64,000 nucleotides of DNA from Gordius sp. MW1. Lineage: Eukaryota > Nematomorpha > Gordioida > Gordea > Gordiidae. The stretch lies in NCBI GenBank assembly GCA_964036665.1, contig OZ038530.1:11852001-11916000 (forward strand), read 5' to 3'. The notes beneath the pieces are model-generated. The model did no database searches, was not told where the DNA came from, and saw only the letters and a program-made list of their open reading frames with translations. The position numbers were made by a program, and so were the translations under genes. Numbering within the stretch: the first letter of the stretch is position 1; the number at the start of each line of letters is the position of its first letter. This document shows, piece by piece, positions 8,311-55,375 of this stretch.

Positions 8311-8689
8311 AAAAACTCGGGCCTTCGGCCCTCGTGGGAAGGGGGAGAAGGGAAGGGGGGACGACTCATCTGTACTTCGTATAAATGTATCATATTTGCT
8401 ATGCAATTTATGGGCGAGAAAGGTGGGAAGGGGCGAGAATGCCTATAGGGGGGTATTAAATGCCTAATGATTAATTAATTATTTATACAAATTTTCCATT
8501 ATAGGCAAAATGTAATATAGGCAAGTGTTAGGGTTAGATTTAGTGTTTGCACCTAGTTGCGTATTACATTAGTTTTTATTGATTATGGGTCTAACAAACA
8601 TTATATTATAAAACAACACAATGTTAAGAATTTGCAGAATTGTTGGGAGAAATTTTTTGTTGAATTTGAACAATTTTTAATTAAAAAAA

Positions 8690-9650
8690 TCAAAAATTTG
8701 GCCAATGGTCACTTTTTCTCTATTGGTCAGTACCAACAGATACTCTATAAGTCAATGATAGCCAAAAAAACGGAAAAAAAAATTTTGATGCTCAATTTGG
8801 CCAATGGTCATTTTTTTCCATTGGTCAGCAGCCAGCACACGTTAAAAGTGGATATAAATTCATAAGAGTAAAAAAAAACGAAAATAAAATTTTCAAATCA
8901 CATTTTGGCCAATGGTCATTTTTTTCCATTGGTCAGCAGCCAGGACACGGTAAAAGTGGATATAAATTCATAATAGTCAAAAAAAACGAAAAAAAAGTTT
9001 TCGAATCACATTTTGGCCAATGGTCATTTTATTCCAGTGGTCAGCAGCCAGCGGACGGCCAAAAAGTGATAATAACAATGGTAGGAACAGGAACAATCAT
9101 AATAGTCAAAAAAAAACGAAAAAAATATTTTCGATTTACATTTTGGCCAATGGTCATTTTTTCCATCGGTCAGGAGCCAGCGGACGGCCAAAAAGTCATA
9201 ATAGCAATGGTAGTAACAGGAACAATCATAATAATCAAAAAAACGAAAAAATAAACTCGGATTCACATTTTGGCCAATGGTCATTTTTTTCAGTGGTCAG
9301 CAGCCAACGGACGGCCAAAAAGTCTTATTATCAATGATAGTAACAAGAACAATCATAAGAGTCAAAAAAAACCCGGGATTCTAACCCAAAAACTAGTTAA
9401 ATTGCATAGCAAGTAAAAGTAAACAACTTTATTTATGTTTATTATATAACATTGGTCAGCAGCCAGCGGACGGCCAAAAAGTCATAATAGCAATGGTAGA
9501 AACAGGAACAATCATAATAGTCAAAAAAAAAACGAAAAAAATAATTTTGATTCACATTTTGGCCAATGGTCATTTTTTTCATTGGTCAGCAGCCAGCGGA
9601 CGGCCAAAAATTCTTATTATCAATGATAGTAACAAGAACAATCATAAGAG
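8690..9650. repeat. Minisatellite with inverted CCAAT motifs, core of the HINE-like element
   Basis: About eight degenerate units of roughly 105-140 bp. Each starts near TTGGCCAATGGTCATTTTTT, continues with CCATTGGTCAGCAGCCAG, and most contain CGGACGGCCAAAAAGTCATA and a run of A's. Within each unit GGCCAATGG and CCATTGGTC form a short imperfect stem. Several frames stay open through the units (repeating LANGHFF), but this reflects unit length and composition. I do not call a protein. Confidence 0.85.
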
Positions 9651-9824
9651 TCAAAAAAACTCCGGGATTCTAACCCCAAAACTAGTTAAATTGCATAGCA
9701 ATTAAAAAGTAAACAACTTTTATTTATGTTTATTATATAACTAGTTAAATTGCATAGCAATTAAAAGTAAACAACTTTTATTTATGTTTATTATATAATA
9801 GATAATTTAACAAATCTTATATAT

Positions 9825-9950
9825 AATACACCGAGGGAGATAGAGATGAGGGGTGGGGCACCTCTTATGCATTAATTTAAAAAATAACACAGCGAGGGAG
9901 ATAGAGATGAGGGGTGGGGCACCTCTTTCTCATGCATTAATTTAAAAAAT
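9825..9950. repeat. Two-copy tandem repeat of about 62 bp
   Basis: GAGGGAGATAGAGATGAGGG followed by GTGGGGCACCTCTT and ATGCATTAATTTAAAAAAT occurs twice in tandem. The reverse complement recurs at 41690-41745, 49910-49985 and 50320-50425, so it belongs to the HINE-like element family. Confidence 0.8.
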
Positions 9951-10045
9951 CGATAACCTAATATACCCAATGCAAATAGATAAAGAGGGTAACGGACAAC
10001 GGACAACCAAAAAACGAGCCCATAAATAGCATAGCAATTAATATT

Positions 10046-35300: not shown

Positions 35301-37903
35301 TTCAGAGAATTAATATAATCCTCCAACCAAACGTTTGAAAGGGTGAAGTATGTCTTTTCTTTGCTTTCATAGTTGTAAACCACAAAATCTAAAAAATGGA
35401 AAAATGAAAAACAAAATAAATGACAAGTAATCTCAGCTACACTTTAAAATTCAATTAATAATTATAAAATGGATCTAATTATAACAACCACATCCAATTT
35501 ATATGGTTAATAATACATTTAATTTCAAACCCAAATCTTTGGCAATGAAAAGCTTATCTGAAGGTAGACAATAAAATATTTTTTTAATTCATCAATTCCT
35601 GTAGCATTAACAAAATCCAAGCTACACCCATGCTTATTTTTAAGTTGAGATTGGAATTAGAGGGACCAGGGCAATAATGATTACGGAAGGGGCAAAATGA
35701 TAATTTTTAGATATTTAACCATAATTATATTACATTACATTTTAAAGCATTTTTAAGTTTAAATAGGCTTCCCCCTGGGTACACCCATGCATAAACACTT
35801 AGCTTTATCTACTTATTTATGATAAATAACAAAGTAATAACATCAATAAAAAGATGTAAAACAGTCTTTAAAAATTACCTTTTATAAATGTAATATCAAC
35901 ATGTAGGCACATTTAACCACAACACAAACGACACAAATCTACAAACAAGGGTAAGTGTCATACTGTTTCGCTCTAGTTGATGCCGAACAATGATATAATC
36001 ATTAGCAGTCATTGCCACATCACAGGGTTGGAGCTGTTGGTGAGATGGTATCTTGTTTATGTATTTGTCATTAGCATTGAAGAGGGAATGCAGTGAGATT
36101 CTGCACTTGAGATTTCCGTCATAATCATTAATTTCAGCAAGATCAGGTCCCCTCAAAAGTAGGAATGAACTTAAATTTAAAAATTAAATGTCAAATTTAA
36201 TTTAAAAAAATATATATTTATAAATTGGTACAATTTATATAAAAAAATTATAATTCTTACCAAGTATTAAAAATTATATGGTAAAAACTTTCAAAATTAG
36301 AGGCCATTGCAGAATCATTTATTAATTGGCAAAATGTTACTGAGTATTTTTATGTAAACCCCAAAAAAGGCTCATTTAATATATATATTTTAAGTAATAA
36401 TATATATGGAACATACTTGATATTTTGCATAATAAATTTTGTAGAGTAAGTAGGGCCTAATTCAGCTACTAAAGGTATGGCAAAGTTAGGAAGTCTAAAT
36501 GCGAGTTAAGTAAAGCTACTTCAATAATATAATTAACTTGTATATATAAAGATGATAAGATGTTATTAGTATTAAATGATCAAAATCTAATGAACATTTA
36601 AATATATCATCTTGAACATCATATAATTGTGCATCGGCAAGTTCAGTTTCATTTGTATCATAAATGTTGATAGAAAATTGTTTGGGAGTGAGCAACATGA
36701 ATTTAATTTTTTTGTACTCCATGACTCTAAATTTATAATTAACACATTTTAATTGTAAAATACTTGTTTTTAATAAATCCTTTAGAAATATTTCCACCTA
36801 TTTCAAGTAAAAACGTATTACACAAGGGTGACCAGGTAAAATTAAATGCATTTCCAGCACTAATGCCTTTGGCAAAGTTGTATTTATTAACTTCTGAATC
36901 ATTTAGATATGTCAAACTGTATGATTTATGGGTATGAATTGATTGGTCACAATACATTCTGTTCAATATGCTTATAAGCTCTATGGGTTGGTGCAAACCA
37001 AAGAATGTCATATGATTTTCTTCAAAAAAACTTGTAGTGAAAAAATTGGGTGTCCACTTTATTTCATATGACAAGCTGTAAATGTCATTTATAGTAACAT
37101 CTTGCATATAAATTAATTCAAGTTTTGAATTTGTTGCAGATTTATAAGATATGACTTTATTAATTTTTTTTTGTGATACACATAAAACCAAATAAACCTG
37201 ATGTAGATTCAAAAATTTAATATCACAGAAAACTATTGCCGACTCAAATATTTTAAGCTTAAAATTCATAGGTTAATGTTGAAATTAATTGTATACTTTA
37301 GAAAATGTTGATGCAACTGACAAATCATATAGGCATAAGAAATTTTGCTTCACAAAGTATATGTATTGAGCATCAAAAAATCCCACAAACTTCAAAGGTG
37401 TTTCTTAACAAGTTTTAGTTATGGAATATGTGTTGAAAACCGTACCTGCATTTTCAATGATGCTTACAAGAGAATATTTATTGGACCATAATTTCAAATA
37501 GCCATCTTCACCACCTTCAAAAATCAAAAAACAAATTATAAAATTAACCTGTGATAAATAACGGCAGATCCATGCTCCATTTGCAAGATAAGGCCATATT
37601 ATCAAAGATCTTCAGCTCTTTTAGCAACGTCCCATTTTCATTAATTACAATAAAATATCCATTTGATAAAGTTAGACCAATTTTGCATTCTGCATTATTG
37701 TTTAAATAGGAATAGATTATGTCAAATGATGTAGGGTATGCATTTTGGTCAATGCCTATATCTATAGTTTGAAATGGAATTGAATTAAATGTCCCAAATT
37801 TTTTCCTAAAAAATTTGTACAATATAATTCTTCCAACTCCTCCTGCAATAAAGCTTTCCCCGTCGATATAAAACAAAAGTGTTATTTCTATATTTAAATC
37901 CAT
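32340..37903 (-). CDS. IFT80: IFT80, intraflagellar transport complex B subunit, with a large insertion
   Basis: Eleven exons on the minus strand: 37903-37549, 37514-37446, 37403-37297, 37257-36764, 36726-36538, 36494-36417, 36169-35964, 35388-34518, 33860-33515, 33069-32944, 32555-32340; phases close to give 1018 residues (human 777). IFT80 is a peripheral IFT-B subunit with two WD40 propellers and a C-terminal helical repeat, needed to build cilia. Telling segments: GGEDGYLKLWS; FAFN-like AFNFTWSPLCNTFLLEIGGN; CSL-like KCSLDFDHLILITS; NDYIIVRHQLERNNFVVYNY; KLAYSALKRLDKLIYLKRLE; NRALKLAQQYPEWL. They follow the IFT80 order throughout. Exon 8 adds roughly 240 Ser/Thr/Asn-rich residues in the second propeller. 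The first five introns are 34-43 nt. The ATG at 37903 is the first after an in-frame TAG. The sequence is highly divergent, so the name rests on collinearity. Confidence 0.86.
32610..32760. mobile_element. MITE family A, copy 5, last IFT80 intron
   Basis: Ends CATGAGCGTAGCCAGG and GGCTACGCCCATG, exact 8-bp duplication ATTGATTA (32602-32609, 32761-32768). Confidence 0.93.
35648..35789. mobile_element. MITE family A, copy 6, rearranged, IFT80 intron 7
   Basis: The interior (GGCAATAATGATTACGG) and right end (GTACACCCATG) are present, but the left end is not the usual inverted end. A CTACACCCATG word in direct orientation lies at 35624, suggesting an old rearrangement. Confidence 0.7.
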
Positions 37904-37991
37904 TAAAAGTTTTGTTCGCTAGATTCATGCAGGTGAAAAAAATGAACAGATGATCTATCTAAAGCAGTTACATACAAAACATCGCGTTTTA

Positions 37992-39974
37992 AATTGGTGA
38001 ATTATCCATAACTTACAGCGTTTACCTCAACTTTTGCACTTCGTGTTCTTCTCCTGCACACTAGTAGGGGAGAAAAGGGGTAATCAATCATAGCGTCTAA
38101 CATGTATCGCTCATTCCTTCTCTCCCCTTCGCATGTAACACACTCCTTCCCCAACCTTCATGTTATTTTGCAACTCATACACCATATTTTGCACTTTTTT
38201 ATTAAATGGTTGTTTTTTGTATAAATTAGTGAATTTTTTTTTCAAATTTTTTTAGAATATAGTTTTAATTAATTAAAGTTAAATTTTTTTAATGATTAAT
38301 TTTTTTAATTCAAAGTTTATTCAGCCTTAAAAATATTTCCTGGACGAAAATCTAATTTCACAAATTCTTTCCGTCTCCTTATTTGGCATGTGGCATGTAC
38401 CTCACCCCTTTGTTACTGTGAAATGTGTTTTGGGAACTCTTGCAACTGACCCTGCGCCTTTCATAATTTTTTTTTCCGTCTAAATTTGTTCATTATTTTG
38501 GTATTTTTAAAATGATGGATCAGCAAACTCGAAAATTGGCAATAAAGCTTAGCCAAGATGGAAAATCCTATGTTGAAATCGCAAAATTACTAGATATATC
38601 GCGGTTTCAAGCAATGAGAACTGTTAAAATTTTTTACGAAGAAGGGAGAGATTACGCCAAAAAGTGTGCTGAGCGACAAAAATAATTAGATGTACCACAT
38701 GTCAATTTCATCTTTGATGAAATTGACAAAAATTGTTCGCTGTCCCTAAAAGATTGAAAAAATAAAGGATAAATACAATCTCGATGTTTGTCCTACTACA
38801 ATCGCCCGGGAAATAAAAGGTTTCCATTATTCATTTAAGCGCATAGCAATGATTCCTGAAAGGCGCAATGATGAAGACGTTATTAATAAAAGACGGCAAT
38901 ATATGCAAGAGTTTTGCCGTTTTTTAGCCCTCGATCTTAACATTATATTCATGGATGAAACGGGGTTCAATGTATCGATGAGGGCTATTTATGGAAGGGC
39001 GGCTACTAACGAAAGAGCAATAAAGAAGGTTAAAGCCCTTAAAAGCCGAAATTTAAGCATGTGCTGTGCAATAACAAAGGAAGAATTAATTTATTACAAA
39101 ATTTTAAACGATGCCTACAATAGCGCTAAATTTAACGACTTTTTAATAGAATTATTCGAATACCTATCGAATAAAAATATTCAAAACTGCATTATCGTAA
39201 TGAACAATGTTCCATTCCACATTCCCTGTTAGTAAAAAATACCTTAGCAGCTTTTGGTCATAAAGCTTTATATTTACCACCATATTCCCCTTTTTAAATC
39301 CTATAGAGGAGGTCTTTAGCAAATTGAAGTTCATCGTTAGAAAAGGCGAACCTCAAAATGAGAGGGATTTATTAACACTGGTAGAAAATTCTAAATCCGA
39401 GGTAATTTAATTTTACATATGTATATACATTAGTACATTAATCGTTAGATTACTTCAGAAGATTGTCGAAACTATTTTTCCCATGTGAAAACATATATTG
39501 ACCCGTGTTTGAATAATGAAAATATTGATTATTAAATTTTACATGCATTTTATTTGTTTTATATACATATATGCATATTTTATTGTATTTTACAATAATT
39601 TTTCGACAATAAACGTATACATGACAAAATTTAATTTTTAAGGTTGAATAAACTTTAAATTAAAAAAATTAATCATTAAAAAAATTTAAGTTAAATTAAT
39701 TAAAACTATATTTAAAAAAAATTTGAAAAAAAAATTCACTAATTTATACAAAAAACAACCATTTTATAAAAAAGTGCAAAATATGGTGTATGAGTTGCAA
39801 AATAACATGGAAGGTTGGGGAAGGAGTGTGTTACATGCGAAGGGGAGAGAAGGAATGAGCGATACATGTTAGACGCTATGATTGATTACCCCTTTTCTCC
39901 CCTACTAGTGTGCAGGAGAAGAACACGAAGTGCAAAAGTTGAGGTAAACGCTGTATATATAATTCACCAATTCA
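37992..39974 (+). mobile_element. Tc1/mariner-superfamily element with about 335-bp inverted ends
   Basis: Inverted arms of roughly 335 bp run from 37992 to about 38331 and from about 39640 to 39974; they are nearly identical (for example CAGCGTTTACCTCAAC near 38016 and its complement ending 39953). The outermost shared word is AATTGGTGAATTAT; flanking TA dinucleotides fit the TA target of this superfamily, although the very ends differ by about 2 nt. Between the arms lies a decayed transposase. The left end is 89 bp upstream of the IFT80 start codon, so the insertion sits in its promoter or 5' UTR. Confidence 0.85.
38512..39410 (+). pseudogene. Tc1/mariner-type transposase, broken
   Basis: The N-terminus has a helix-turn-helix region (KLSQDGKSYVEIAKLLDISR). 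The DDE core shows FMDETGFN (first Asp), then IVMNNVPFH where the second catalytic Asp is replaced by Asn, then, after a frameshift, LYLPPYSPF and a NPIEEVFSKLK-like segment with the third acidic residue. Stops occur after about 58 codons and near 39231. The copy therefore cannot encode an active enzyme. DD34E/DD34D-like spacing was not measured. Confidence 0.85.
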
Positions 39975-40002
39975 TAACACAGGTGGCAATTAAAGAATGT
40001 AT

Positions 40003-40159: not shown

Positions 40160-40329
40160 GAATGTATTATAAATAATCATAAGATACCTCATAAGTTTTG
40201 CATCTTCTAGGCAAAACAAACCACATATTAGATGTCCTCTCAATATTTTATAAATTCTTATCAGCATAAATTTATACGAAGTGCCATTTTATAAGACAAT
40301 TTCGGAGATATAGCGTATCATCCTCTTCT

Positions 40330-41157
40330 TTTCATGACTGTTTATCACCTAGGCTGGTGATTAGTCCTTTCAAAATTAATTTCTATTGTTTCCATATACA
40401 CAGATTTTAATTTATTTTGTGCATTTGCTTTCCAGCAAAATATATCTTCCCACTTCCCTTCGAAGTAGCTCTCGTCTCATCTCTTGACATGGCCATACCA
40501 TCTTAGACTGTTTGTGCCAGCTTTATCTTCATAGATGTTATACCAAAATTTCTCCTTATTTCTTTATTTTTTTAAGTTCTTTTTTACTTACTGCTAGCAT
40601 TCATCTTAGCAATCTCATCTCCATGCACGCAAGTGTTTCTCTTCCCTCTTACTTATAGCCCATAATTCTTAGCTATACATAATTGTTGGCTATATGATGG
40701 ACCTATATGTGTACTTTTAAGTCTTGTTAAGATCTTTTTGTCACACAGAACGCCTGTTAAATCTCTCCATTTAAACTATCCGATATTTATCCTCGCTTGG
40801 ATTTATTTATCCATTCCTCTATCCCCTTGAAGTGTTGATACTAGATATTTGAAGGAGTCCATACTTTTAAGTTCCCATTCGTCTAATAAAATGAACCTAA
40901 TTTTCATCTGATTTAAACTTGGTCGAGATGTATTCTTTTTTTTCAATTTAACCTGTGACCACTTTCTTTTATTGCGTTTACCTATCTATTTACAGTATTA
41001 GCCAATTCTTGTTGACTTTTGGCACAGAGGATTATATCGTCAGCAAAAATCATTGTTTAAGGAGCTTCCTCACGCGGATCCTTTATAATATTACCCTTTA
41101 ACGTATGAATATGAAGGGGCTAAGAGCTGAACCATAATGGAATCCACTTATGATAAC
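40330..41157 (-). pseudogene. LINE reverse transcriptase, 3' half (split from 55090-55375)
   Basis: Read on the minus strand: SGFHYGSALSPF, then MIFADDIILCAKSQQELANT with the catalytic FADD box, later FKYLVSTLQGDRGMDK, INIG, and a degraded LRWYGHV region. This is the order of non-LTR retrotransposon ORF2 C-termini. Several stops are present. The upstream half of the palm lies 13.9 kb away at 55090-55375. Confidence 0.85.
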
Positions 41158-41336
41158 TAGTGATGCGGAAAAACCGAGAAAAATCTCAGTCCGAGACGAG
41201 AATTGGAAAAATTAAGTCGAGATCGAGATGAGAATCTTTACCTCGAGACGAGATTTTATCAGCGAGATCTCGGCTTTAATTTTTATTTTTTATTGAGACA
41301 AAATTTAGCTAATTAAGAATTTTTATTTTATGAGAT

Positions 41337-41573
41337 TATCGTATCCGAAGATACGAGGATATCTTCCCCCCCCCCCATGTTCTTTTATAAAAAAAAGGCC
41401 GCCGCTCACTATACGTGGTACGTATGTTACTTTTTCTTTCCCCCATGCCCCCTGACAAAAAAGGTTAATTGATTGTAACATCTGTGTACTGAATATATAC
41501 GTAAAACTTTATTCCTTTACATTTAATTTCTAGTACGCGTATGTTATCCCCCCCCGACGCGCTTATACGTATT
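41337..41573. repeat. Segment B of a 1.26 kb tandem duplication, first copy
   Basis: About 237 bp starting TATCGTATCCGAAGATACGA, closely matching 52943-53183. Its normal continuation (segment X) is displaced to 51924 by the 10.35 kb insertion. Confidence 0.88.
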
Positions 41574-42262
41574 AATTGCTATGCAATTTATGGGCTCGTT
41601 TTTTGGTGTCCGTCCGTCTGTCCGTCCGTCCGTTACCCTCCCTATCTATTTGCATTGGGTATATTAGGTTATCGCTTTTTTAAATTAATGCATGAGAAAG
41701 AGGTGCCCCACCCCTCATCTCTATCTCCCTCGCTTTCGGGCGGGGTCGGGTTTTATATAATAAACATAAATAAAAGTTGTTTACTTTTAATTGCTATGGA
41801 GTGGAGGAGATGGAGAAAGGGAGAGAGATCATCCCTCAACCCCGCTTTACCGCTCGACAACCCAATAATAGGTTATGTTGTCGTGACCTTGATAACTATA
41901 AAATACAACTAACCATAAAGCTTACCCCTTCACTCCCTCTCTCCCCCTTTATGACGCATATTAATTCCATCTTGTTTACTTGCTATGCAATTTATTTCAA
42001 ATTCTATATCCATTAATAAAGTAAGTTTTAATTATTTTTATTATTAATAACTTGCTATTTTTATTATTTGTTCATGATTGTTTCTTGCATGTGCTAGTGT
42101 TTAGGCTTTCAACATTAATATTCTTTCAAATCCATTTTTACACATTGAATTATTTATTTTAAAGATAACTATTTTTGTTTTTTTGTGTTCTTGCATAAAA
42201 TTAGGTTTTGTCTTTCATTTATCTACTATATATTGCCTACTTATTTTATATTGCTTTTTTTT

Positions 42263-43210
42263 CAATGGTTAGTACCAATTGTATATATTTTGCATGTAGT
42301 TTGATTTCAACCATCATTTACAATTTTTTGATATATCACCTGTAAACTTATTATGAATTTATTGGCCAGGTTCTGATTCCTTTAAGCAATTTTGAAAATT
42401 ATGAAACTTCTACCACCCTGTAAGTGATTATTTTAATTTCTGTTTATCAACAATGTATTGTTGAAAATGAAATAATCATTAAATTAGGCAGATTAAATTT
42501 TTCTTATTTAGTATGTAATTAGACATATCTTTTGGCCAAATAGTTAAAATTGAAAGATTTTCAATGGTTAGGACCAATCATTGTATATATTTTGCATGTA
42601 GTTTGATTTCAACCATCATTTACAATTTTTTGATATATCACCTGTAAATTTATTACGAATTTATTGGCCAGGTTCTGATTCCTTTAAGCAATTTTGAAGA
42701 TTATGAAACTCCTACCACCCTGTAAGTGATTATTTTAATTTCTGTTTATCAACAGTGTATTGTTGAAAATGATATAATCATTAAGTTAGGCAGATTAAAT
42801 TTTTCCTATTTATTATGTAATTAGACATATTTTTGGCCAAATAGTTAAAATTGAAAGACAAAAGAGGATACAAATATGTAGTTAATAAATATTTCTAAAT
42901 TATTTTTATTTATTCTCAAATGTATTTCTTTTTTTGGCCAAATAGTTAAAATTGAAAGACAAAAGAGGATACAAATAGGTTCTGGTTCCTTTAAGCAATT
43001 TTGAAGATTATGAAACTTCTACCACCCTGTGAGTGATTATTTTAATTTCTGTTTATCAACAGTGTATTGTTGAAAATGATATAATCATTAAGTTAGGCAG
43101 ATTAAATTTTTCCTATTTATTATGTAATTAGACATATTTTTGGCCAAATAGTTAAAATTGAAAGACAAAAGAGGATACAAATATGTAGTTAATATATTTC
43201 TAAATTATTT
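42263..43210. repeat. Tandem repeat of about 300 bp, roughly three copies
   Basis: Units begin near TTCAATGGTTAGTACCAA (42263) and TTCAATGGTTAGGACCAA (42561); a third, truncated unit begins near AGGTTCTGGTTCCTTTAAGC (42977). Shared words include GGCCAGGTTCTGATTCC and TTGGCCAAATAGTTAAAATT. No gene. Confidence 0.88.
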
Positions 43211-43769
43211 TTATTAATTGCTATGCAATTTATGTTTATTCTCAAATGTATTCCTTTACATTTTGCTCATTTTGGAAACTATTTGAAACGGCGTATAAAT
43301 TACACGTTAACCGATTATTATATGATGTTTTTTGTGTTTATTATATCTAAATTTTTTAATACTTTTAGATAATTAATGCGCCCATTTTTCCCCTCAATCA
43401 TTTAAATTCTTTGACATATTGCTAAAATATAACTAATATATTACCCTTTAACGCTCTTTTCAATGCAGATATATGATTACATCTTATTTCGTATAGATTA
43501 AAAATAAACATTCGGTAAGATGATATAAAATCCCTGCCAAAATTAAACAAGATATTAAGACGTGCCTATGAACCATTAATTTATAATTTTATAAAACATG
43601 CCCTACATTTTTAAAATCTTTAAAAAAATATTTATAGTATCTAAAAAACTAAGATTTCCAATCTTAACCTATCTGTAATGAATTTAACTTATAAATTTAG
43701 ATTTTACCTCATGATTTTTAAAAGTTCTCATTTACGGAGTTGCCTGTGCATTTTGATATCTAACCATGT

Positions 43770-43937
43770 TTTAGAAGATTATTACCCTCATATTCGATGT
43801 TTTGAATGGATAAATTTTCGGGAATTGTCGAGGGTGTTAAAAAGAAATTATAATTATTATAATAATATTTCGTCTTATTTAAGGACATCTTCGGATTAAA
43901 ATAAAATAGAATTACAAAATAAAATAAAATAATACAA
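43770..43937 (-). repeat. Penelope pseudo-LTR, left copy
   Basis: About 160 bp nearly identical to 46499-46665 and, inverted, to 48757-48895. Read on the minus strand it carries the 3' UTR and, at its outer end, a copy of the start of the coding region. Confidence 0.88.
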
Positions 43938-46616
43938 TTAAATCGAACGTTCTAAAGGGAGGTTAATATTATAATGTAAGAAAGGATACAGGTTCTCTTT
44001 ACCCATATCTTCATTGAGTGTTGGGTGTAATCTTCGAATGAGAAAGGACTCTAGGGTTTTTCTTTCAAAATAGGTCTCGGTGTTAACTAAAATGGTTGTT
44101 TTTAAATTGTTTCCGTGATTTAGTTGTAATAAATGATTTGAAACGGCGGTTAAATTTGCGTTTGAGCGATATAATGCCGCTAGATGTTCCTTGAATCGTG
44201 TATTAAAATCTCTTTTTGTTTCACCAATATAGAAATTATTGCAATCATTACAAGTTATCTTATATATTAAGTTGTTTGTAGTAGGAGATGATTGGTAATT
44301 ATTTTGTATAATATTTAGTAAAGATCTGTTGGGTTTCTGACTTATTATAATGTTGTTCATATTGTTGTTCCTTAAAATGTGTCTTATGTTTCTTATGAAA
44401 CTATAAGGTATATATTGATGGTGTGGAAATGTTATAAAAACTTTATCACAAATAGTTTGCCTTATTTTTGGATTGTAACATTGATATAAAATATCACAAA
44501 ATAAGTGAAAGGGATATTTTAATAAGCTAAATGTTTCAAATAAATAAATGATTTCCTTATTTAATGCCTCGGGTGAGGATGATAGATTGATTGCCCTATT
44601 TAAAAGCCAACGTAAAGTATTAACTTTTAAATTAAAAGGTGTAAAACTATTAAAAGGAATATAATTGTATCGTGATTCGGTAGGTTTATGATAAACTTCG
44701 GTATGAAAAAAGTCCTGGTTTTTAGTAATTAAAATGTCTAAAAAAGGTAGACAGTGATGATTTTCTAGTTCGTATGTGAACTGAATATTGGGATGAAACG
44801 AATTTAATAAATTTAAAAATTGATTTAAATCATTGTCTATATCTAAATTCCAAATTGCAAATATGTCGTCAACATACCTGCTCCAAAAAGATGGGAAAAG
44901 TGGAGATTTTGATAATTCGTTTTCTAAGTGGCATAAATAAATGTTTGCCAAAACGGGAGCAATAGGCATGCCCATGGCACAGCCATCGATTTGATCATAA
45001 TTTTCCAAATTGAATTGAAAATTATTTTTCTTTGTACAAAACAATAATAGATCTTTAAAAACTTCCGAAGAAAATGGTAATGTCCCGTTTTCTTGTAACT
45101 TTGATATGCAAATATTGATTGTTTCGGATATAGGTATTTGTGTAAATAAGTTTTTAACATCAAAACTAATCATGTATGCATTGGTTGGAGGTTTGATTGA
45201 TCTGATACGTGATTTAAAATCAAGTGATTTTTTGATTGAGTATTTGTTTTTAGAGAGAGGTGATAAGAATTTTATTAAATACTTTGAGAGATTGTAATTG
45301 TATGCGTTGTAAGTTGACATGATAGGTCTTAGAGGTATATTGGGTTTGTGGATTTTAGGTAATCCGTATAATTGTGGGGTTCGAGAACATGAGGCTCTTA
45401 CTTAATTATATTCTTCCTTGGTTAAAAGATTTTTATGGAATAAACTAATTAAAACTTTATTCAATGCTTTTTCCCGTGTTTGTGTGGGGTCCTTATTTAA
45501 TTTAATAAAATGTGTTTCGTCATTTAAGATTGCTAACATTTTTGTCATGTAATCTTCCGAATTCATTAAAACAATTTTTCCACCTTTATCAGCTCTAGTG
45601 ATTTTTAAATCTTTGTTCATTTTGATATTCTTAATGATATTTGGATATATATTTTCTTTAGCACTTTGTTTTTGAGTTCTAATTTTATTCAACCTATGTC
45701 CTATGTGTGTGTTTAGGTCTTCAAAAATCTTGTTATTATCCGGTTGTGTTTGTTTTATTGTTTGTAATAATTTTTCCACACTGTTTATGGTTTGAGTTAG
45801 TGGAAAGGTTTTATTTTGTTTAAAACTAAATTTGGGACCTAGGTTTAGGAGGTCAATTGTCTTTTCATCTAATAAGTGACTTGAAAGGTTAATATATTTA
45901 TCAAAATTATGAGAATCAGCTTGTTTTGAGTTTTCCACAATAGGGCATGAGTTTGAATTAGCATTAATGGTGCGTAATGTCGGGGAAAGGTTATTAGTAT
46001 TATATGATTTATTTTGAAATTGTAAAAGATTTTGAAGTGAACTTTCTTTGGTAGTATGTTGAATTTTCTTAATGTTAGATGTTGTTTGTTTTGAAAAGAG
46101 ATTTTTTAATTTGTTCTTTAGTTTTTGAGTTATATTATACATGAGGTTAAACGACAAAATATTTATATTTGTGTTTATAAAGTTATATAGTTTGCAATGG
46201 CATGTGTTCAATAGTTGACATCTTAATGCTAGAATATCATTAAGACGCTTTTTATTTTGATTCTTATGATATGTTATTTCTGATAAAATAAATTTAATTT
46301 TAAACTTATGAATAAGTTTTTCGTTAAATTCATGCTTATTAAGTTTGATATGGTTAATAAAATTTGGAATAAGATTGTTACCTAGACAGGTTGTTAAGAA
46401 TACTATCTTATTTACGGTGCGATGGAATTTTGTGTGGAGGTTTAATAATCGATAAGAAATTTTAATTAAATTCTTCCCGTAAGAATATGATAAATATTTT
46501 AGAAGATTTTTACCCTCATATTCGATGTTTTGAATGGATAAATTTTCGGGAATTGTCGAGGGTGTTAAAAAGAAATTATAATTATTATAATAATATTTCG
46601 TCCTATTTAAGGACAT
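43938..46616 (-). pseudogene. Penelope-like reverse transcriptase with GIY-YIG endonuclease, one in-frame stop
   Basis: A reading frame of 893 codons on the minus strand broken by a single TAA (after LTKEEYN, near 45402). N-terminal third: basic, Asn/Lys-rich. Then the Penelope-type motifs: ITRADKGGKIVLMN, stop, QLYGLPKIHKPNIPLRPI, ISFDVKNLFTQIP, CAMGMPIAPVLANIYL and the catalytic YVDDIFAIW. At the C-terminus is a GIY-YIG nuclease: LIYKITCNDCNNFYIGETKR, the Arg in TRFKEH, and Glu in LESFLIRRLHPTLNED. Penelope-like elements use this nuclease to nick the target and prime reverse transcription. Length and motif order are typical. With only one stop this copy is young, and the stop could be recent or a sequencing difference. 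Confidence 0.93.
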
Positions 46617-46665
46617 CTTCGGATTAAAATAAAATAGAATTACAAAATAAAATAAAATAATACAA
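46499..46665 (-). repeat. Penelope pseudo-LTR, middle copy
   Basis: Simultaneously the 5' end of the long copy (including its first 39 codons) and the 3' UTR of the neighbouring truncated copy. Differs from 43770-43937 at only a few positions. Confidence 0.88.
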
Positions 46666-47660
46666 TTAAATCGAACGTTCTAAAGGGAGGTTAATATTAT
46701 AATGTAAGAAAGGATACACGTTCTCTTTACCCATATCTTCATTGAGTGTTGGGTGTAGTCTTCGAATGAAAAAGGACTCTAGGGTTTTTCTTTCAAAATA
46801 GGTCTCGGTGTTAACTAAAATGGTTGTTTTTAAATTGTTTCCGTGATTTAGTTGTAATAAATGATTTGAAACGGCGGTTAAATTTGCGTTTGAGCGATAT
46901 AATGCCGCTAGATGTTCCTTGAATCGTGTATTAAAATCTCTTTTTGTTTCACCAATATAGAAATTATTGCAATCATTACAAGTTATCTTATATATTAAGT
47001 TGTTTGTAGTAGGAGATGATTGGTAATTATTTTGTATAATATTTAGTAAAGATCTGTTGGGTTTCTGACTTATTATAATGTTGTTCATATTGTTGTTCCT
47101 TAAAATGTGTCTTATGTTTCTTATGAAACTATAAGGTATATATTGATGGTGTGGAAATGTTATAAAAACTTTATCACGAATAGTTTGCCCTATTTTTGGA
47201 TTGAAACATTGATATAAAGTATCACAAAATAAGTGAAAGGGATATTTTAATAAGCTAAATGTTTCAAATAAATAAATGATTGCCTTATTTAATGCCTCGG
47301 GTGAGGATGATAGATTGATTGCCCTATTTAAAAGCCAACGTAAAGTATTAACTTTTAAATTAAAAGGTGTAAAACTATTAAAAGGAATATAATTGTATCG
47401 TGATTCGGTAGGTTTATGATAAACTTCGGTATGAAAAGAGTCCTGGTTTTTAGTAATTAAAATGTCTAAAAAAGGTAGACAGTGATGATTTTCTAGTTCG
47501 TATGTGAACTGAATATTGGGATGAAACGAATTTAATAAATTTAAAAATTGATCTAAATCATTGTCTATATCTAAATTCCAAATTGCAAATATGTCGTCAA
47601 CATACCTGCTCCAAAAAGATGGGAAAGTGGAGATTTTGATAATTCGTTTTCTAAGTGGAC
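46666..47660 (-). pseudogene. Penelope-like element, 5'-truncated copy 2
   Basis: About 330 codons covering the end of the reverse transcriptase (FWSRYVDDIFAIW) and the full GIY-YIG domain. Two bases are missing relative to the other copies just before FPSFWS (near 47625), so the frame upstream is lost. It starts abruptly at TAAGTGG, 47660. Confidence 0.9.
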
Positions 47661-47682
47661 CTCCAAACAAAATTCACAATTC
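47661..47682. other. Filler at the head-to-head Penelope junction
   Basis: About 22 bp (ACCTCCAAACAAAATTCAC and neighbours) not found at the matching place in either arm. Such filler is expected from template switching or end joining at the inversion point. Confidence 0.6.
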
Positions 47683-48756
47683 AATTTGGAAAATTATGAT
47701 CAAATCGATGGCTGTGCCATGGGCATGCCTATTGCTCCCGTTTTGGCAAACATTTATTTATGCCACTTAGAAAACGAATTATCAAAATCTCCACTTTTCC
47801 CATCTTTTTGGAGCAGGTATGTTGACGACATATTTGCAATTTGGAATTTAGATATAGACAATGATTTAAATCAATTTTTAAATTTATTAAATTCGTTTCA
47901 TCCCAATATTCAGTTCACATACGAACTAGAAAATCATCACTGTCTACCTTTTTTAGACATTTTAATTACTAAAAACCAGGACTCTTTTCATACCGAAGTT
48001 TATCATAAACCTACCGAATCACGATACAATTATATTCCTTTTAATAGTTTTACACCTTTTAATTTAAAAGTTAATACTTTACGTTGGCTTTTAAATAGGG
48101 CAATCAATCTATCATCCTCACCCGAGGCATTAAATAAGGCAATCATTTATTTATTTGAAACATTTAGCTTATTAAAATATCCCTTTCACTTATTTTGTGA
48201 TACTTTATATCAATGTTTCAATCCAAAAATAAGGCAAACTATTCGTGATAAAGTTTTTATAACATTTCCACACCATCAATATATACCTTATAGTTTCATA
48301 AGAAACATAAGACACATTTTAAGGAACAACAATATGAACAACATTATAATAAGTCAGAAACCCAACAGATCTTTACTAAATATTATACAAAATAATTACC
48401 AATCATCTCCTACTACAAACAACTTAATATATAAGATAACTTGTAATGATTGCAATAATTTCTATATTGGTGAAACAAAAAGAGATTTTAATACACGATT
48501 CAAGGAACATCTAGCGGCATTATATCGCTCAAACGCAAATTTAACCGCCGTTTCAAATCATTTATTACAACTAAATCACGGAAACAATTTAAAAACAACC
48601 ATTTTAGTTAACACCGAGACCTATTTTGAAAGAAAAACCCTAGAGTCCTTTTTCATTCGAAGACTACACCCAACACTCAATGAAGATATGGGTAAAGAGA
48701 ACCTGTATCCTTTCTTACATTATAATATTAACCTCCCTTTAGAACGTTCGATTTAG
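47683..48756 (+). pseudogene. Penelope-like element, 5'-truncated inverted copy 3
   Basis: Opens at QFNLENYDQIDGCAMGMP and stays open to the natural stop, including YVDDIFAIW and the complete GIY-YIG nuclease, about 356 codons. It lacks the N-terminal half and cannot encode a whole enzyme. Nearly identical to the two minus-strand copies, so all three are of similar age. Confidence 0.92.
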
Positions 48757-48895
48757 TTGTATTATTTTATTTTATTTTGTAATTCTATTTTATTTTAATT
48801 CGAAGATGTCCTTAAATAGGACGAAATATTATTATAATAATTATAATTTCTTTTTAACACCCTCGACAATTCCCGAAAATTTATCCATTCAAAAC
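48757..48895 (+). repeat. Penelope pseudo-LTR, inverted right copy
   Basis: Reverse-complement match to 43778-43937, ending at ATTCAAAAC just before the right target duplication. Confidence 0.87.
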
Positions 48896-48907
48896 ATCTA
48901 ACCATGT

Positions 48908-50200
48908 CTTTGTTTTTTGTCTGGAGATTATATATGAATATACGAAGAATTAATACAAGTAGTCCTAAATAAATAAACATTTAGTATTATAGTAGCTTAG
49001 GAATTAATAGACTAAAAAAATAAAATTAATAAACCTATACAGTCAAAACCGTTTAATTGCTAAGCCTTGGGCCTGAATAAAAATTCGCGATTAACCGATA
49101 TATGTAAATACATAAAGTCATACGCTTCGCAATAAAAAAGATATTTTATATAATCGTATGGTTGATTTAAGGACTCGAAAATGTTTGTGAATATTCGACA
49201 TTGTAATATTAAACGATTTGTCAATAAACGATGTTTTTGGTAATATTATCGTTTGAATAAAACCAAATAGTGGTTAACGTCGCGTTTAAAAGATTTTCGC
49301 GATAATTCGATTTGCGATTAAGAAGTTTCGACTGTATTATGTATTTTTTATAAAGTAACTGAATTAAAACTTTTTAGATAATTTAAAACAAATTCAATTT
49401 GATATTAAATAGCAATTAATTTAAAATATGTGTATTAAGGGAAATCCAATTAAATTTTCCAATAGGTCATCTAAATCTACAAAATTTTAATTTTTTTTAT
49501 TTTTTTTGACCATTGGCCAAATAAATCGAAATTTTAAATTTTTCGTTTTTAAATAAATTACCATTGATAAATTACCCTATGCCCTCCCCTAGAAGTGCCT
49601 ATTAATTTTTTAAATAAAATTTATAAAATTTATATTTTGTTCTTGTTGATATTTGTTAAATTATCTATAATATATTGATTTTCTATTATTGTTCCTTTTT
49701 CAGCTAATGGCAGTTCTATGACTAAAATGATATGCAAAATAATTTTTCGATTATGTAAATGCATTTGATTGTTAACCTCTTTGCCAAAGTATTAATTGCT
49801 ATGCAATTTATGGGCTCGCTTTTGCTTTTGTTTGTCACGCTGTTTGTCCCGCTGTTTGTTATTAGTTTGCATTGGGTATATTAGGTTATCGATTTTTTAA
49901 ATTAATGCATAAGAAAGAGGTGCCCCACCCCTCATCTCTATCTCCCTCGCTGTGTTATTTTTTAAATTAATGCATAAGAGGTGTCCCATTGATAATATGA
50001 CTTTTTGGTCGTCCGATGTTCTATTATTGTTTCATTTTATTAATTTTATATAATAAACATAAATAAAAGCTGTTTACTTTTAATTGCTATGCAATTTAAC
50101 TAGTCTTAACTAGTTGTCGATTTATGTTGGAAATTAAACTATATCACATGAACAAACTGAATATGCCTCTTAATCATTTTATTTATAATTATTTTCGTTT
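48908..50200. other. AT-rich filler within the HINE-like block
   Basis: No gene. 49000-49780 is AT-rich with nothing recognised. From 49796 another HINE-type end (TTAATTGCTATGCAATTTAT) and the GTGCCCCACCCCTCATCTCT repeat appear. Confidence 0.5.
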
Positions 50201-50599
50201 TTAATTGCTATGCAATTTATGGGCTCGTTTTTGGTTGTCCGTTGTCCGTCCGTCCGTTACCCTCCCTATCTATTTGCATTGGGTATATTAGGTTATCGAT
50301 TTTTTAAATTAATGCATGAGAAAGAGGTGCCCCACCCCTGATCTCTATCTCCCTCGCTGTGTTATTTTTTAAATTAATGCATAAGAGGTGCCCCACCCCT
50401 CATCTCTATCTCCCTCGCTTTCGGGCGGGGTCGGGTTTTAATTGCTACGTTAAATTAATGCATAAGTATATCTATTCGATTTTGAATTGGGTAACATTGA
50501 TATTAATTGCTATAATTACCCTATGCCCTCCACTACAAGGGCCTATGCCTCTACTGATATGGGTCCCTGTGCCCCTACAAAAGCCTATGCCTCTATTAA

Positions 50600-50660
50600 T
50601 GTGGGTTCGAACCCCGGCGAACGTTCTGAATTGCTGGTTCGATTCCCGGAGAGGGCAAAA
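50600..50660 (+). repeat. tRNA-like B-box motifs (possible SINE remnant)
   Basis: GGGTTCGAACCCC (50607) and GGTTCGATTCCCGGAG (50636) resemble the T-arm/B-box of tRNA genes, 16 nt apart. No A box or cloverleaf was found, so this is at most a SINE remnant or chance. Confidence 0.3.
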
Positions 50661-50699
50661 TTTTTTTTTATTTTTTAAATTAAATTAATATATTTTTCC

Positions 50700-51540
50700 T
50701 GTTACTACCATTGATAATATGACTTTTTGGCCGTCCGCTTGTTCTATTATTGTTTCATTTTATTTTATAATAAACATAAATAAAAGTTGTTTACTTTTAA
50801 TTGCTATGCAATTTAACTAGTTTTTGGGTTAGAATCCCGGAGTTTTTTTGACTTTTATGATTGTTCTTGTTACTATCATTGATAATAAGACTTTTTGGCC
50901 GTCCGCTGGCTACTGACCAATGAAAAAAATGACCATTGGCCAAAATGTGAATCCGAGTTTATTTTTTCGTTTTTTTTGACTATTATGATTGTTCCTGTTA
51001 CTACCATTGCTATTATGACATTTTGGCCGTCCGCTGGCTTTTGACCGATGGAAAAAATGACCATTGGCCAAAATGTGAATCGAAATTATTTTTTTCGTTT
51101 TTTTTGACTATTATGATTGTTCCTGTTCCTACCATTGCTATTATGACTTTTTGGCCGTCCGCTGGCTGCTGACCAATGGAATAAAATGACCAGTGGCCAA
51201 AATGTGATTTGAAAATTTTTTTTTCGTTTTTTTTGACTATTATGAATTTATATCCACTTTTACCGTGTCCTGGCTGCTGACCAATGGAATATGACCATTG
51301 GCCAAAATGTGATTCGAAAATTTTTTTTACTCTTATGAATTTATATCCATTTTTACCGTGTGCTGGCTGCTGACCAATGGAAAAAAATGACCATTGGCCA
51401 AAGTGAGCATCAAATTTTTTTTCGTTTTTTTGGCTATCATTGACTTATAGAATATCTGTTGGTACTGACCAATGGAGAAAAAAGGACCATTCGCCAAATT
51501 TTCGATTTTTTTAATTAAAAATTGTTCAAATTCAACAAAA
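50700..51540. repeat. CCAAT minisatellite, inverted copy
   Basis: Seven or so units reading as the reverse complement of 8690-9650 (ATGACCATTGGCCAAAATGT; GGCCGTCCGCTGGCTGCTGA). It ends in the same flanking sequence as the first copy, then in the terminal hairpin at 51908-51920. Confidence 0.85.
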
Positions 51541-51923
51541 AATTTCTCCCAACAATTCTGCAAATTCTTAACATTGTGATGTTTTATAATATAATGTTTG
51601 TTAGACCCATAATCACTAAAGGCCGTAAAAACTAATGTAATACGCAACTAGATGCAAACACTAAATCTAACCATAACCCTTGCCTATATTACATTTTGCC
51701 TATATTACATTTTGCCTATAAATGGAAAATTTGTATAAATATTTAATTAATCATTAGGCATTTAATACCCCCCTATAGGCATTCTCGCCCCTTCCCACCT
51801 TTCTCGCCCATAAATTGCATAGCAAATATGATACATTTATACGAAGTATAAATGAGTCGTCCCCCCTTCCCTTCCCCCCTTCCCTTCTCCCCTCCCCCTT
51901 CCCACGAGGGCCGAAGGCCCGAG

Positions 51924-53400
51924 TTTGTTATTTCTATCAATACGCTTCATTGATTTTTACACACTCGAGAGTTGCTTGATTTTATTAATTAATTAATTTA
52001 TTCTTGGAGATAAATAAAATATATAAAGGACCTAAAGAAAGAATTAAATGGTGAGTCCCCCTTTGGGGGGGGGGGAACAAGGATTATCCCTTTACGGCCC
52101 AATATAGTTTATTCTTTTACGGCCCAATATTTCCCTCAATTCAAGCCATGATAATTCCCCCTTTTTCAAATCCTTTTTATTCATATCTTATATTCTTTTT
52201 TAAAGATATGAAAAGGTGTCCAGAAGATAAAAAAAATCCCACCCTCGTATATTCCTATTCATCATATCCAAAATCGCATCCTGCACAAATATAAATTTCC
52301 TCTGTGTAAAGAAAACAGGATTGAAAGTGGTTGAGAAGTTATTCGAAACAAATCACTTCTACCCAATGCATCGACTGATTGATTCGAAACCTTATTAAAA
52401 ACTGGATCGTACTTGGAAAATTCAGGTCGGGTCTGAGACATCCATAATTGTTAAGGCAGCAGGAGTCTCCTTAATTTTCAGATGATGGCAAGAGTTCCTC
52501 ATGTATGGAGGTAAAGGCATATTAAAATGCTGAGAATTCCTCATTTTAGATTAATTTCAGAACGACAATAACAAAATTATCCAATAAAAAGAAATTCATA
52601 GAGCCGGGATTCAGTTACCTATAGAGCGGGGAAGAAAATTATTTTTGGATTATTCCAGGAGTATTCCCACAAGCCATAGATGAGGTATTTATAATTACAT
52701 CCCGTTGGCCATGAATACTTAATTTTTCAAAAGAAGAGACCATGTGATTGCTTTGAAGGATACACATGTCGTATGTAATAATTTTTGGATAGTTAGTATA
52801 ATATTTTTATATATTATATTGTTACTATTAATATCATGTAAACCCATAATCAGAACGTTGTTAATAAAAACCATCCGATTGCATTATATCAATTATTCTT
52901 TTATCTACCCCTGGTCCTAATTTTTTTTGGAAAAAGGGAAGGTATCGTATCCGAAGATACGAGGATATCTTCCCCCCCCCCATGTTCTTTTATAAAAAGA
53001 AACGCCGCCGCTCACTATACGTGGTACGTATGTTACTTTTTCTTTCCCCCATGCCCCCTGACAAAAAAAGGTTAATTGATTGTAACATCTGTGTACTGAA
53101 TATATATGTAAAACTTTATTCCTTTACATTTAATTTCTAGTACTCGTATGTTATCCCCCCCCCCCGACGCGCTTATACGTATTTGTTATTTCTATCAATA
53201 CGCTTCATTAATTTTTACACACTCGAGAGTTGCTTGATTTTATTAATTAATTAATTTATTCTTGGAGATAAATAAAATATATAAAGAACCAAAAAAAGGA
53301 ATTTAATGTGAGTCACCCTTTGGGGGGGGGACAAGGATTATCCCTTTAAGGCCCAATATAGTTTATCCTTTTACGGCCCAATATATCCCTCTATCTTTCC
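51924..53400. repeat. 1.26 kb tandem duplication (segments X, B, X')
   Basis: Segment X (51924-52136, TTTGTTATTTCTATCAATAC onward) recurs as X' (53182-53395), and segment B (52943-53183) matches 41337-41573. The distance X to X' (about 1258 bp) equals the distance B' to B after subtracting the 10.35 kb insertion, so the ancestral state was a direct tandem duplication. Poly-G and poly-C runs occur in both copies. No gene. Confidence 0.85.
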
Positions 53401-53778
53401 TTTCAATTCGCCCAATTATTTATTCCTATTCTTCATATCTTAAATCCCATCCTGAACAAATATAAAGAGTTCATAATCTTGTTTTAGAATTGGAAATTAA
53501 GAATTGGAATGAACAAATATATAAATTCATAATTATCTTATTCGAAAATAGAATAGAGATTTAAATTTAAAATATTAAATGCAAATTAATATAATTTTGA
53601 AACTTTTAATATTAAATTACTTAAGCACCTAATTGTCCGCCTCGCGCAAATTTCAAATTTGTAATATAATCTTATTCACTACACAACATGTTTTTCGTGG
53701 CCCTTAGGGAATATGAATAATTATGTATTTATTACTTATTTGTATGGCATTATATAATACAAAAATTTTAGACCTATA

Positions 53779-54321
53779 ATGAGTTTATGCGCAACAAGTT
53801 CATCCAACTCAAAAAAGAGCAAGCTGCTTAAACATTTCACAGTATCCAAGGATGAATCAAATAAAATGGGGAAGTGTAAATCATGCTTTAAAGCAGTAAA
53901 AATGACTGATAGCAATACTTCAGGTCTTCAAAGACATCTTAAACGTTACCATCCTAAGGATTACTGTAACCTTTACCCTACTCAAGTTAATAAGGAATTA
54001 ACCTTCTCAAAAACTAGATGCTTCAGAAAATCTAAGCATTTAACAGTTATTATATATCAAACATATTCTTCAAAAATGTCTAAATGATTGTTTATGTTAT
54101 ATAATTAGTTGATTAACAAAAATAATTATCCCAATCTAGCAGCAATGGCCAGAGATTTTCTGAGCACCCCGGCGACCTTGGTGCCTGCCGAAAGATTGTT
54201 TTCGAAGGCGTCTCGGACTATTCGAAAACATCCTCATAGATTAACTCATGAATGTGTCAGGAGCTTGTTATGCATAAACTCATGGCACACCTCAACAAAT
54301 TTCAACCCATCACATTCTTAA
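53779..54321 (+). pseudogene. hAT transposase remnant (BED finger plus C-terminal domain), copy 2
   Basis: A 102-codon frame opens with a BED zinc finger (GKCKSC ... LQRHLKRYH); after a gap a 70-codon frame holds the hAT dimerisation region (TLVPAERLFSKASRTIRKHP, ECVRSLLCINSW). The RNase-H-like catalytic core is deleted. It lies near the right end of the 13.9 kb element and is probably that element's own gene. Internal deletion derivatives of this kind are usual for non-autonomous hAT elements. Confidence 0.87.
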
Positions 54322-54960
54322 CATTTTACGTCAAAATGTAGGCTTGGCAGATGCATTCAAATTCACTGAATTTTTTGCAAAATGCCGCAATTTATCAATA
54401 AATTAAAATAAATGAACATAAGCTTTATTAGTACGTAATTATTTTATGCGAAAATTAATAATAAATGGATTAAGTAAATATTATGTTATATATGGATGTC
54501 TCACTATAATAGAATTGTTTATTTAATAACTTAAATTATTATATATGTGCAATTAACATTTATTTTCTTCCAACAATAATGCCTGTTTTATAGTATTTGC
54601 AATGTTTAGATAATAACTTGTTATAAATAATGATAATATTCGTAAAAGTTTACTCTCGAATTTTTGTCATTATTTTAACGTTATTATATAAGATCTCAAT
54701 AAATTTATTATGTTAAATATGATGATATTACATATTAAACTTTATCCTTTTATTTAACCTTAGCCAGGAAATAAAAGTTATTAATTAGCAACTATACCTT
54801 CGAGTCATGTAGTATATAACACCTATATTAATGCTTCCTACCTTAAGTTACTCATCTAGCTTGTGTTTTGGGGTTTGCGATAAAAAATTGGTTCCATTAT
54901 GACCAATTGAAATCTTATATAATAATTTATAAGAGCCAAAAAAATATATATGGTATAATT
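54322..54960. other. 3' part of the hAT-type element, non-coding
   Basis: Similar to 17580-17720 for about 400 bp, AT-rich, leading into the GAGACGAGA subterminal repeats. Confidence 0.6.
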
Positions 54961-55089
54961 AATTTTAAAAGTCGAGACGAGAATTTTCGCCGAGACGAGA
55001 TCGAGATTTTTCTAGGCCGAGACGAGATCGAGGTTTAAATAATTGCACCCGAGACGAGATTTTGATTTCGAGACTAGATCGAATCACTA

Positions 55090-55375
55090 ATGATGGCAAA
55101 ACCCTTTGCAGTCCCGACCGTTGTAATGTACGTTCTATTTTCGTTGTACATATTTTTTATTACCTAGACTTATAATTTTGGCACTATGTTTTCTTTAAAA
55201 TATCGCCAAATTAATGTCCTATGGATTTAATCAAACGTTTTTTCTATATCGATGAAACACATGTGTAAATCTTCCTCCATTTCTCTAAACCCTTCCATTA
55301 TTCTTATAACACTGTTCAGGTCACCTTCTGTAGACCTCACCGGCATATATCCGAATTTGTTCTCTTAATCGGATA
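55090..55375 (-). pseudogene. LINE reverse transcriptase, 5' half (split from 40330-41157)
   Basis: Read on the minus strand: NKFGYMPVRSTEGDLNSVIR, FREMEEDLHMCFIDIEKTFD (first catal. Asp region), IKNMYN and TTVGTAKGFAI. Removing the intervening 13.9 kb and one 8-bp duplication joins GFAI directly to ISGFHYG in frame, restoring the usual RT motif order. Two or three stops show the LINE was already dead or has decayed since. Confidence 0.85.

Follow-up and report, generated by a model that had tools for sequence, protein, structure and literature searches.

The window analysed here, a 64,000-nucleotide stretch of the genome of Gordius sp. MW1 (GenBank assembly GCA_964036665.1, contig OZ038530.1; C4:11852001-11916000 in the notation used below), contains a 15-kb nest of transposable elements that very probably records at least five successive and independent transpositions, each into the body of the preceding element. 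From oldest to youngest, the layers are a long interspersed nuclear element (LINE), a hAT DNA transposon, a long terminal repeat (LTR) retrotransposon, rolling-circle DNA of the HINE/Helentron type and a Penelope-like retroelement. The preliminary description of this locus, which was made from the sequence alone, called so complete a chronology in one window unusual; transposon nests whose order can be worked out are common, and this one is a well-documented ordinary case whose relative dates can be read and checked against each other. What makes it valuable is the youngest layer, whose family forms head-to-head pairs with a tail on exactly one arm. Software that infers the chronology of transposon activity from nesting is described in the accessible parts of two reports (PMC5657132, PMC3014933).

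Approach

The genome comprises 211.8 Mb in 12 contigs, of which C1-C8 measure 21-37 Mb each. Junctions were tested by searching the rejoined flanks, or a single flank, against the window's own genome. Of the hundreds to thousands of candidates in each whole-genome search, only the best 40 are scored, and all counts given below refer to this scored part.

Order of the layers

At the outermost junction, a hAT element splits a LINE between two copies of a target duplication that agree at six of eight bases, as first described (Table 1). With the LINE flanks rejoined (40900-41157 plus 55098-55375), the joint is uncut in 38 of 38 other LINE copies at 79-81% identity, so that every scored copy reads straight through where unrelated sequence had been named as the sign of a wrong joint. 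A single TTAATGGC occupies the site in six of seven aligned LINE relatives and TTAATGGT in the seventh, and the 8-bp duplication is therefore real despite its imperfect agreement. The limits initially given for the LINE, 40330 and 55375, are also nearly those found, as similarity in the seven relatives spans about 40318-41145 and 55098-55368. An open stretch of LINE relative L073 matches RVT_1 (E 4.3e-39), as a non-LTR reverse transcriptase should. RVT_1, seen in this relative, is shared with RTE-like LINEs, a clade to which the element may belong, whereas the window copy is only a degenerate fragment.

The hAT element has terminal inverted repeats (TIRs) TAGTGATGCG and TAGTGATTCG, with the consensus TAGTGAT(G/T)CG. 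One open reading frame (ORF; 53758-54087) matches zf-BED (E 3.4e-07) and the adjacent one (54109-54321) matches the C-terminal dimerisation domain Dimer_Tnp_hAT (E 3.5e-16); the catalytic core of the transposase is not seen in the window copy, and there is no room for it between these two ORFs. The 8-bp duplication, short TIRs, BED finger and dimerisation domain are those of hAT DNA transposons, from which the window copy differs in its internal deletion and in the duplication matching at six of eight bases. A second hAT-family copy, about 85% identical, lies in the window at 17056-17727.

Inside the hAT element are two copies of about 450 bp in the same orientation, which the preliminary description read as a tandem duplication arising there, in a nest of four layers. 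The same unit is present at over 40 further sites, where it stands alone or forms pairs that flank a common body at a spacing of about 1.2 kb, often with 5-bp repeats, and it is absent from 39 of 39 scored hAT relatives, which refutes a duplication within hAT and leaves that reading next to no probability. The copies are instead LTR1 and LTR2 of a separately inserted element, flanked by a GAGAT duplication and missing from the uncut hAT relatives. The order of events is thus as readable as first proposed, and the number of layers rises to at least five with the LTR element that had been missed. All 39 other primary hAT matches cross its joint (query 41158-41336 joined to 53561 onward, with a single GAGAT), so everything in 41337-53555 arrived after the hAT element. 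In the search from 53471, 36 of 48 non-self rows start at 53556-53561 and none earlier, the long rows being 79-91% identical.

Table 1. Features of the nested locus in window coordinates
Feature	Positions	Strand	Remarks
LINE, layer 1, downstream (3') part of reverse-transcriptase region	40318..41157	-	Genome matches and similarity in relatives
hAT target duplication, 6/8	Left copy ATGATAAC 41150-41157; right copy ATGATGGC 55090-55097		Relatives' alignment
hAT, layer 2, left end with TIR TAGTGATGCG	41158..41336	+	Terminal alignment; 39/39 relatives
GAGAT 5-bp target duplication of LTR element	41332-41336 and 53556-53560		Exact
Non-autonomous LTR retrotransposon, layer 3, whole	41337-53555	+	Two LTRs, GAGAT duplication
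LTR1, first part	41337..41573	+	
Helentron-related mosaic, layer 4 or 4b, 8.6 kb, cut by Penelope	41574..50202	+	5' motifs, genome matches
Target duplication of Penelope, ATCTAACCATGT	43758-43769 and 48896-48907		Exact, 12 bp
Penelope-like insertion, layer 5	43770..48895	-	Between exact 12-bp repeats
Penelope copy A, full-length	43770-46493	-	
Penelope reading frame, RVT_1 and GIY-YIG	43938..46679	-	In-frame stop 45402-45404, giving 425 + 487 aa
Penelope copy B, truncated, tandem	46494-47658	-	
Penelope copy C, truncated, head-to-head	47665-48895	+	
HINE, complete, layer 4, 1.72 kb	50203..51923	+	End-to-end copies, motifs
LTR1, second part, ending AAAGATATGAAA	51924..52213	+	
LTR element, internal region	52214..52942	+	Primer-binding-site-like AGGTGTCCAGAAG at 52214; polypurine tract GGAAAAAGGGAAGG 52929-52942
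LTR2	52943..53555	+	Alternative 3' end 53395-53555 common to L016 and L013
hAT, layer 2, remainder including right TIR	53556..55089	+	Genome searches, domain matches
LINE, layer 1, upstream (5') part	55090..55368	-	Starts with second copy of 8-bp target site; genome matches, relatives' alignment

Across the LTR family, the unit starts TATCGTATCC and usually ends AAAGATATGAAA; a primer-binding-site (PBS)-like ATGGTGTC often follows the first LTR, with GGAAAAAGGGAAGG or a similar run ahead of the second. A pattern search detected an exact 5-bp direct repeat at 13 of the 20 left ends with a right end in reach. One of the 13, L006, should be discounted, as its repeat falls on the PBS; among the seven misses, L016 does have its repeat, at an alternative end. 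LTR1 and LTR2 differ by 14 substitutions in 447 aligned sites (3.1%), and in a second alignment 11 of 13 differences are changes that, of the ten sequences compared, appear solely in one or the other LTR of the window. The 3' end of LTR2 (53395-53555) also differs from that of LTR1, which is unexpected under standard LTR replication and suggests template exchange between subfamilies. The same arrangement occurs in L016 (C6:20657663-20659519), with its own exact duplication AACAT, and in L013 the alternative 3' end is followed by the PBS. In relative L037, the candidate PBS TGGTGTCAGAAGTGGGATC seems to be the complement of a tRNA-Leu 3' end.

Two LTRs, a purine tract and a target duplication of constant length make the element similar to terminal-repeat retrotransposons in miniature (TRIMs). 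The direct LTRs, PBS-like site, purine tract, 5-bp duplications, solo LTRs and lack of any coding region seen (no ORF of at least 120 aa is listed for the internal region) are all shared with this type. The element is unlike TRIMs in its total length of about 1.75 kb, in the 3' end of LTR2 not being that of LTR1, and in an LTR start of TATCG and not TG; the termini are TATCG...GAAA or ...AATA, and the usual, non-universal TG...CA was not encountered.

The fourth layer interrupts LTR1 at a T-rich site. The TT junction with an empty sister copy, as previously described, is confirmed and reads TT-insert-TTT against TTT. Among 44 other LTR matches, 42 cross the site uncut and the remaining two are fragments that end short of it. 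TTT stands at 38 distinct uncut LTR sites, which is a description and not a test because the pattern is unable to match an interrupted site. The block 41574-51923 had been described as HINE-like throughout; this stands for the complete HINE at 50203-51923 and fails for 41574-50202, which is a Helentron-related mosaic. One simple HINE starting at 41574 was rejected, as HINE copies begin near 50203: 42 of 42 non-self rows of the second HINE search start at 50173-50201. End-to-end HINE copies make up 17 of 75 non-self rows of the genome search. The 5' subterminal inverted repeat (subTIR) of the HINE is the 15-bp palindrome AATTGCTATGCAATT, with an inverted copy at about 51813, and its 3' stem-loop is GGGCCGAAGGCCC. 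The parts of PMC4067079 available describe HINE/DINE-1 elements as non-autonomous Helentrons with palindromic 12-15 bp subTIRs, a 3' stem-loop and a T-rich target without duplication, all of which the window HINE shares. The open stretches of the window HINE are short, and it is probably non-coding. Its distance from the 3' subTIR to the end, about 110 bp, contrasts with the 38-60 bp given there for mite families.

We infer one or two events for this layer. The whole block minus Penelope could be a single 5.2-kb chimeric Helentron, with its 5' end at 41574 and read-through as far as the HINE 3' terminator (51923), a reading to which we assign somewhat less than an even chance. A HINE-type 5' motif does lie at 41574 (others are at 43216, 49794 and 50082), no 3' inverted motif (3' subTIR) was found in the left block 41574-50202, and leaving out the whole block rejoins the LTR cleanly. 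Against this, the joint at 50200 appears in none of the 42 non-self rows, so that no donor copy is seen, and some mosaic pieces are 98-99% identical to other loci, compared with 92-97% for end-to-end HINEs, as if these pieces had arrived separately and later; for other pieces identity is no more than 86-95%.

Several further features accompany these elements. The mosaic includes three copies of a tandem repeat of about 302 bp (42259-43165) and a segment resembling a miniature inverted-repeat transposable element (MITE; 49040-49334), with inverted ends CAGTC(A/G)AAAC and TA on both sides. Two relatives cross the MITE-like segment uninterrupted at 94-98% identity, and it therefore probably predates the Penelope insertion. 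A second HINE lies in the window on the minus strand (8317-10043; 89% identity over the part matching 50656-51933), and C3:20821114-20827473 holds a HINE tandem array of about 1.15-kb units in five successive scored rows.

The innermost layer is the Penelope cluster, whose extent and exact 12-bp duplication were correctly described from the start. Its site is empty in five of five relatives fetched (of seven search rows starting at the site); two of these match 108 bp of the left flank at 99% identity, and L081 has one change within the 12 bases.

The five layers, their empty sites and their order are shown by these comparisons, and the rejoined flanks of the excised layers align to other genomic copies as expected in the preliminary description. 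The enzymes involved can be inferred from the known biochemistry of each family. A LINE copy was in place first, and the reverse-transcriptase gene of this copy took up a hAT element, presumably through cut-and-paste and a staggered cut of 8 bp. A non-coding LTR retrotransposon then went into the hAT element, presumably by integration with a 5-bp staggered cut, and rolling-circle (HINE/Helentron) DNA went into LTR1 at a T run, leaving no target duplication, in one or two events. Finally, Penelope inserted into the rolling-circle mosaic, presumably through target-primed reverse transcription and a staggered cut of 12 bp.

The inner layers are also the less diverged, as had been predicted. Divergence from relatives is 19-21% for the LINE, 9-21% in the main rows for hAT and 3-8% in end-to-end copies for the HINE; Penelope copy A is 0.9% from its closest scored genomic copies, and arms B and C differ at 6 of 1138 sites (0.5%). 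These values and the 3.1% between the two LTRs agree with the junction order, although the 3-8% of the HINE does not time its insertion and could not by itself set it apart from the LTR element.

Several points weigh against this chronology. The hAT duplication matches at only six of eight bases, the five empty Penelope sites lie in mosaic relatives that diverge from the window further left, and the genome-wide counts cover only the best 40 candidates per search. Divergence from relatives, moreover, mixes subfamily age with insertion age, and the order rests on the junctions because only the LTR1/LTR2 pair and the Penelope arms are internal clocks. An assembly artefact or collapsed repeats might also be considered for a locus with several multi-copy layers. 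The window has no N in its 64,000 bases, and hence none of the gaps at junctions that would have undermined the nest; differing duplication signatures stand exactly where each family predicts them, and every empty site was found elsewhere, leaving such an artefact a minimal probability.

The Penelope family

The Penelope reading frame matches RVT_1 (E 1.9e-12) and GIY-YIG (E 7.7e-07) within one open stretch, with a single in-frame stop upstream. The tandem join, from template position 2728 to 1, is present in the window, L040 and L041, which contain partial tandem copies (pseudo-LTR). No hammerhead ribozyme family is among the Rfam matches to E 5 in 43700-49000, where degenerate motifs may be missed.

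Fifteen young Penelope insertions with sequence in hand comprise 13 head-to-head pairs and two unpaired insertions. In all 13 pairs the 3' ends point outward and the flanks have a common string of 9-17 bp, which is 12 bp in eight of them. The two unpaired insertions have only 5 bp in common at their flanks, which is the chance level: 2,000 random pairs gave a mean of 5.2, and 1.9% reached 9.

A 31-nt tail is found on exactly one arm in 22 of the 22 head-to-head pairs counted, an outcome with probability 2e-7 under independent choice at one half. The tail state of nine of these pairs was taken from match coordinates, and in the 13 sequenced pairs the tailed arm ends at about 2725-2728 of the template and the other at about 2689-2701. 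The second arm consists of only about 10 nt of tail in C5:15822257, one of the 13 sequenced pairs, and of about 28 nt in C3:17647785. In C8:23921174 and C2:4843714, the arms are separated by about 1.1 kb and about 240 bp of unmatched DNA, respectively. Left out of the count were five loci with one arm seen (C3:17576293, C2:1925993, C5:14143886, C1:9892122 and C6:4839242, the last three judged without inspecting sequence), the ambiguous C3:18619476, a tandem array at C2:12289770-12308158 and diverged subfamilies (80-92% identity), of which C8:33526693 and C5:9181090 are likewise head-to-head with unequal 3' ends. In the array, 1.6 kb of the Penelope 3' region recurs in five scored copies, for the most part at intervals of 3,672 bp, so that a retroelement end has been caught up in a tandem array.

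Head-to-head copies could be hairpins formed by self-priming of one complementary DNA (cDNA), as proposed for Pen2a of Adineta vaga in the part of PMC3846280 available, which describes head-to-head copies with an optional tail on one inverted copy. The head-to-head arrangement is the rule in this family too, and opposed arms within a locus differ at 65 of 11,121 sites (0.58%) compared with 1.10% between copies of different loci (pooled over 358 comparisons), so one RNA, or closely related ones, probably gave rise to both arms; the exception is arm A of the window, which at 1.1-1.2% from B and C behaves like copies of different loci. The truncation points, counted in 19 of the 22 pairs, are less accommodating: they lie more than 20 nt apart in 18 and more than 100 nt apart in 15, with a median of 454. 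C5:15517937 alone has truncation points as close as 4 nt; they fall at an imperfect palindrome of the element, and a hairpin would fit this pair. A hairpin copy would furthermore mirror its own arm, whereas the tail is confined to one arm in every pair. Hairpin self-priming is accordingly disfavoured for this family by its unequal arms and single tail, and we consider it improbable.

Other features of the window

An element with 350-bp inverted repeats (95.7% identity) occupies 37986-39978; it contains a DDE_3 transposase fragment (38750-39232) and is Tc1/mariner-like. Neither Rfam at gathering scores nor ARAGORN gave a match in the window, and the reading frame 34433-35443 has no Pfam and no PDB match.

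Insertion mechanism and implications

The single tail, unequal arms and shared flanks speak for two cDNAs, one primed on each side of the break, rather than for hairpin self-priming. Penelope may insert by asymmetric double-ended target-primed reverse transcription, in which one cDNA always starts at an outer site and the other always at an inner one; we regard this specific scheme as having an even chance of being correct. A dimeric Penelope complex would make cuts about 12 bp apart in the two strands and prime one cDNA per side. One cDNA would start at the outer RNA site and keep the tail, the other would start at the inner site, and the two 5'-truncated cDNAs would then be joined head to head.

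Work in vitro with the Anolis element PAc showed that both strands are cleaved and extended and that two start sites delimit the tail, with no apparent difference in start site between the strands (PMC11167929). The pattern in Gordius fits one cDNA from each of these two start sites, subsequently joined. As far as the available part of PMC3846280 allows the comparison, the window family shares with Pen2a and PAc the RVT_1 and GIY-YIG domains, partial tandem copies, an inverted head-to-head copy, a tail of about 31 nt on one arm and direct repeats at the target. It differs in arms that are often long and unequally truncated, and its invariable single tail contrasts with the tail called optional in A. 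vaga. No statement of a strict one-tail rule was found in the literature searched, with most subscription papers outside reach, which is no proof of novelty; the accessible part of PMC12910113, on D. virilis transposons, yielded nothing on Penelope insertion structure.

The insertion mode of Penelope is unsettled between the hairpin put forward in the accessible text of PMC3846280 and the two-strand cleavage and extension observed in vitro (PMC11167929). If the asymmetric scheme is true, the constancy of the one-tail rule would imply two non-equivalent reverse transcriptases. The combination of one tail per pair (22/22) with shared flanks (13/13 paired and 0/2 unpaired insertions) is a rule that any mechanism must explain, and it is testable in other genomes.

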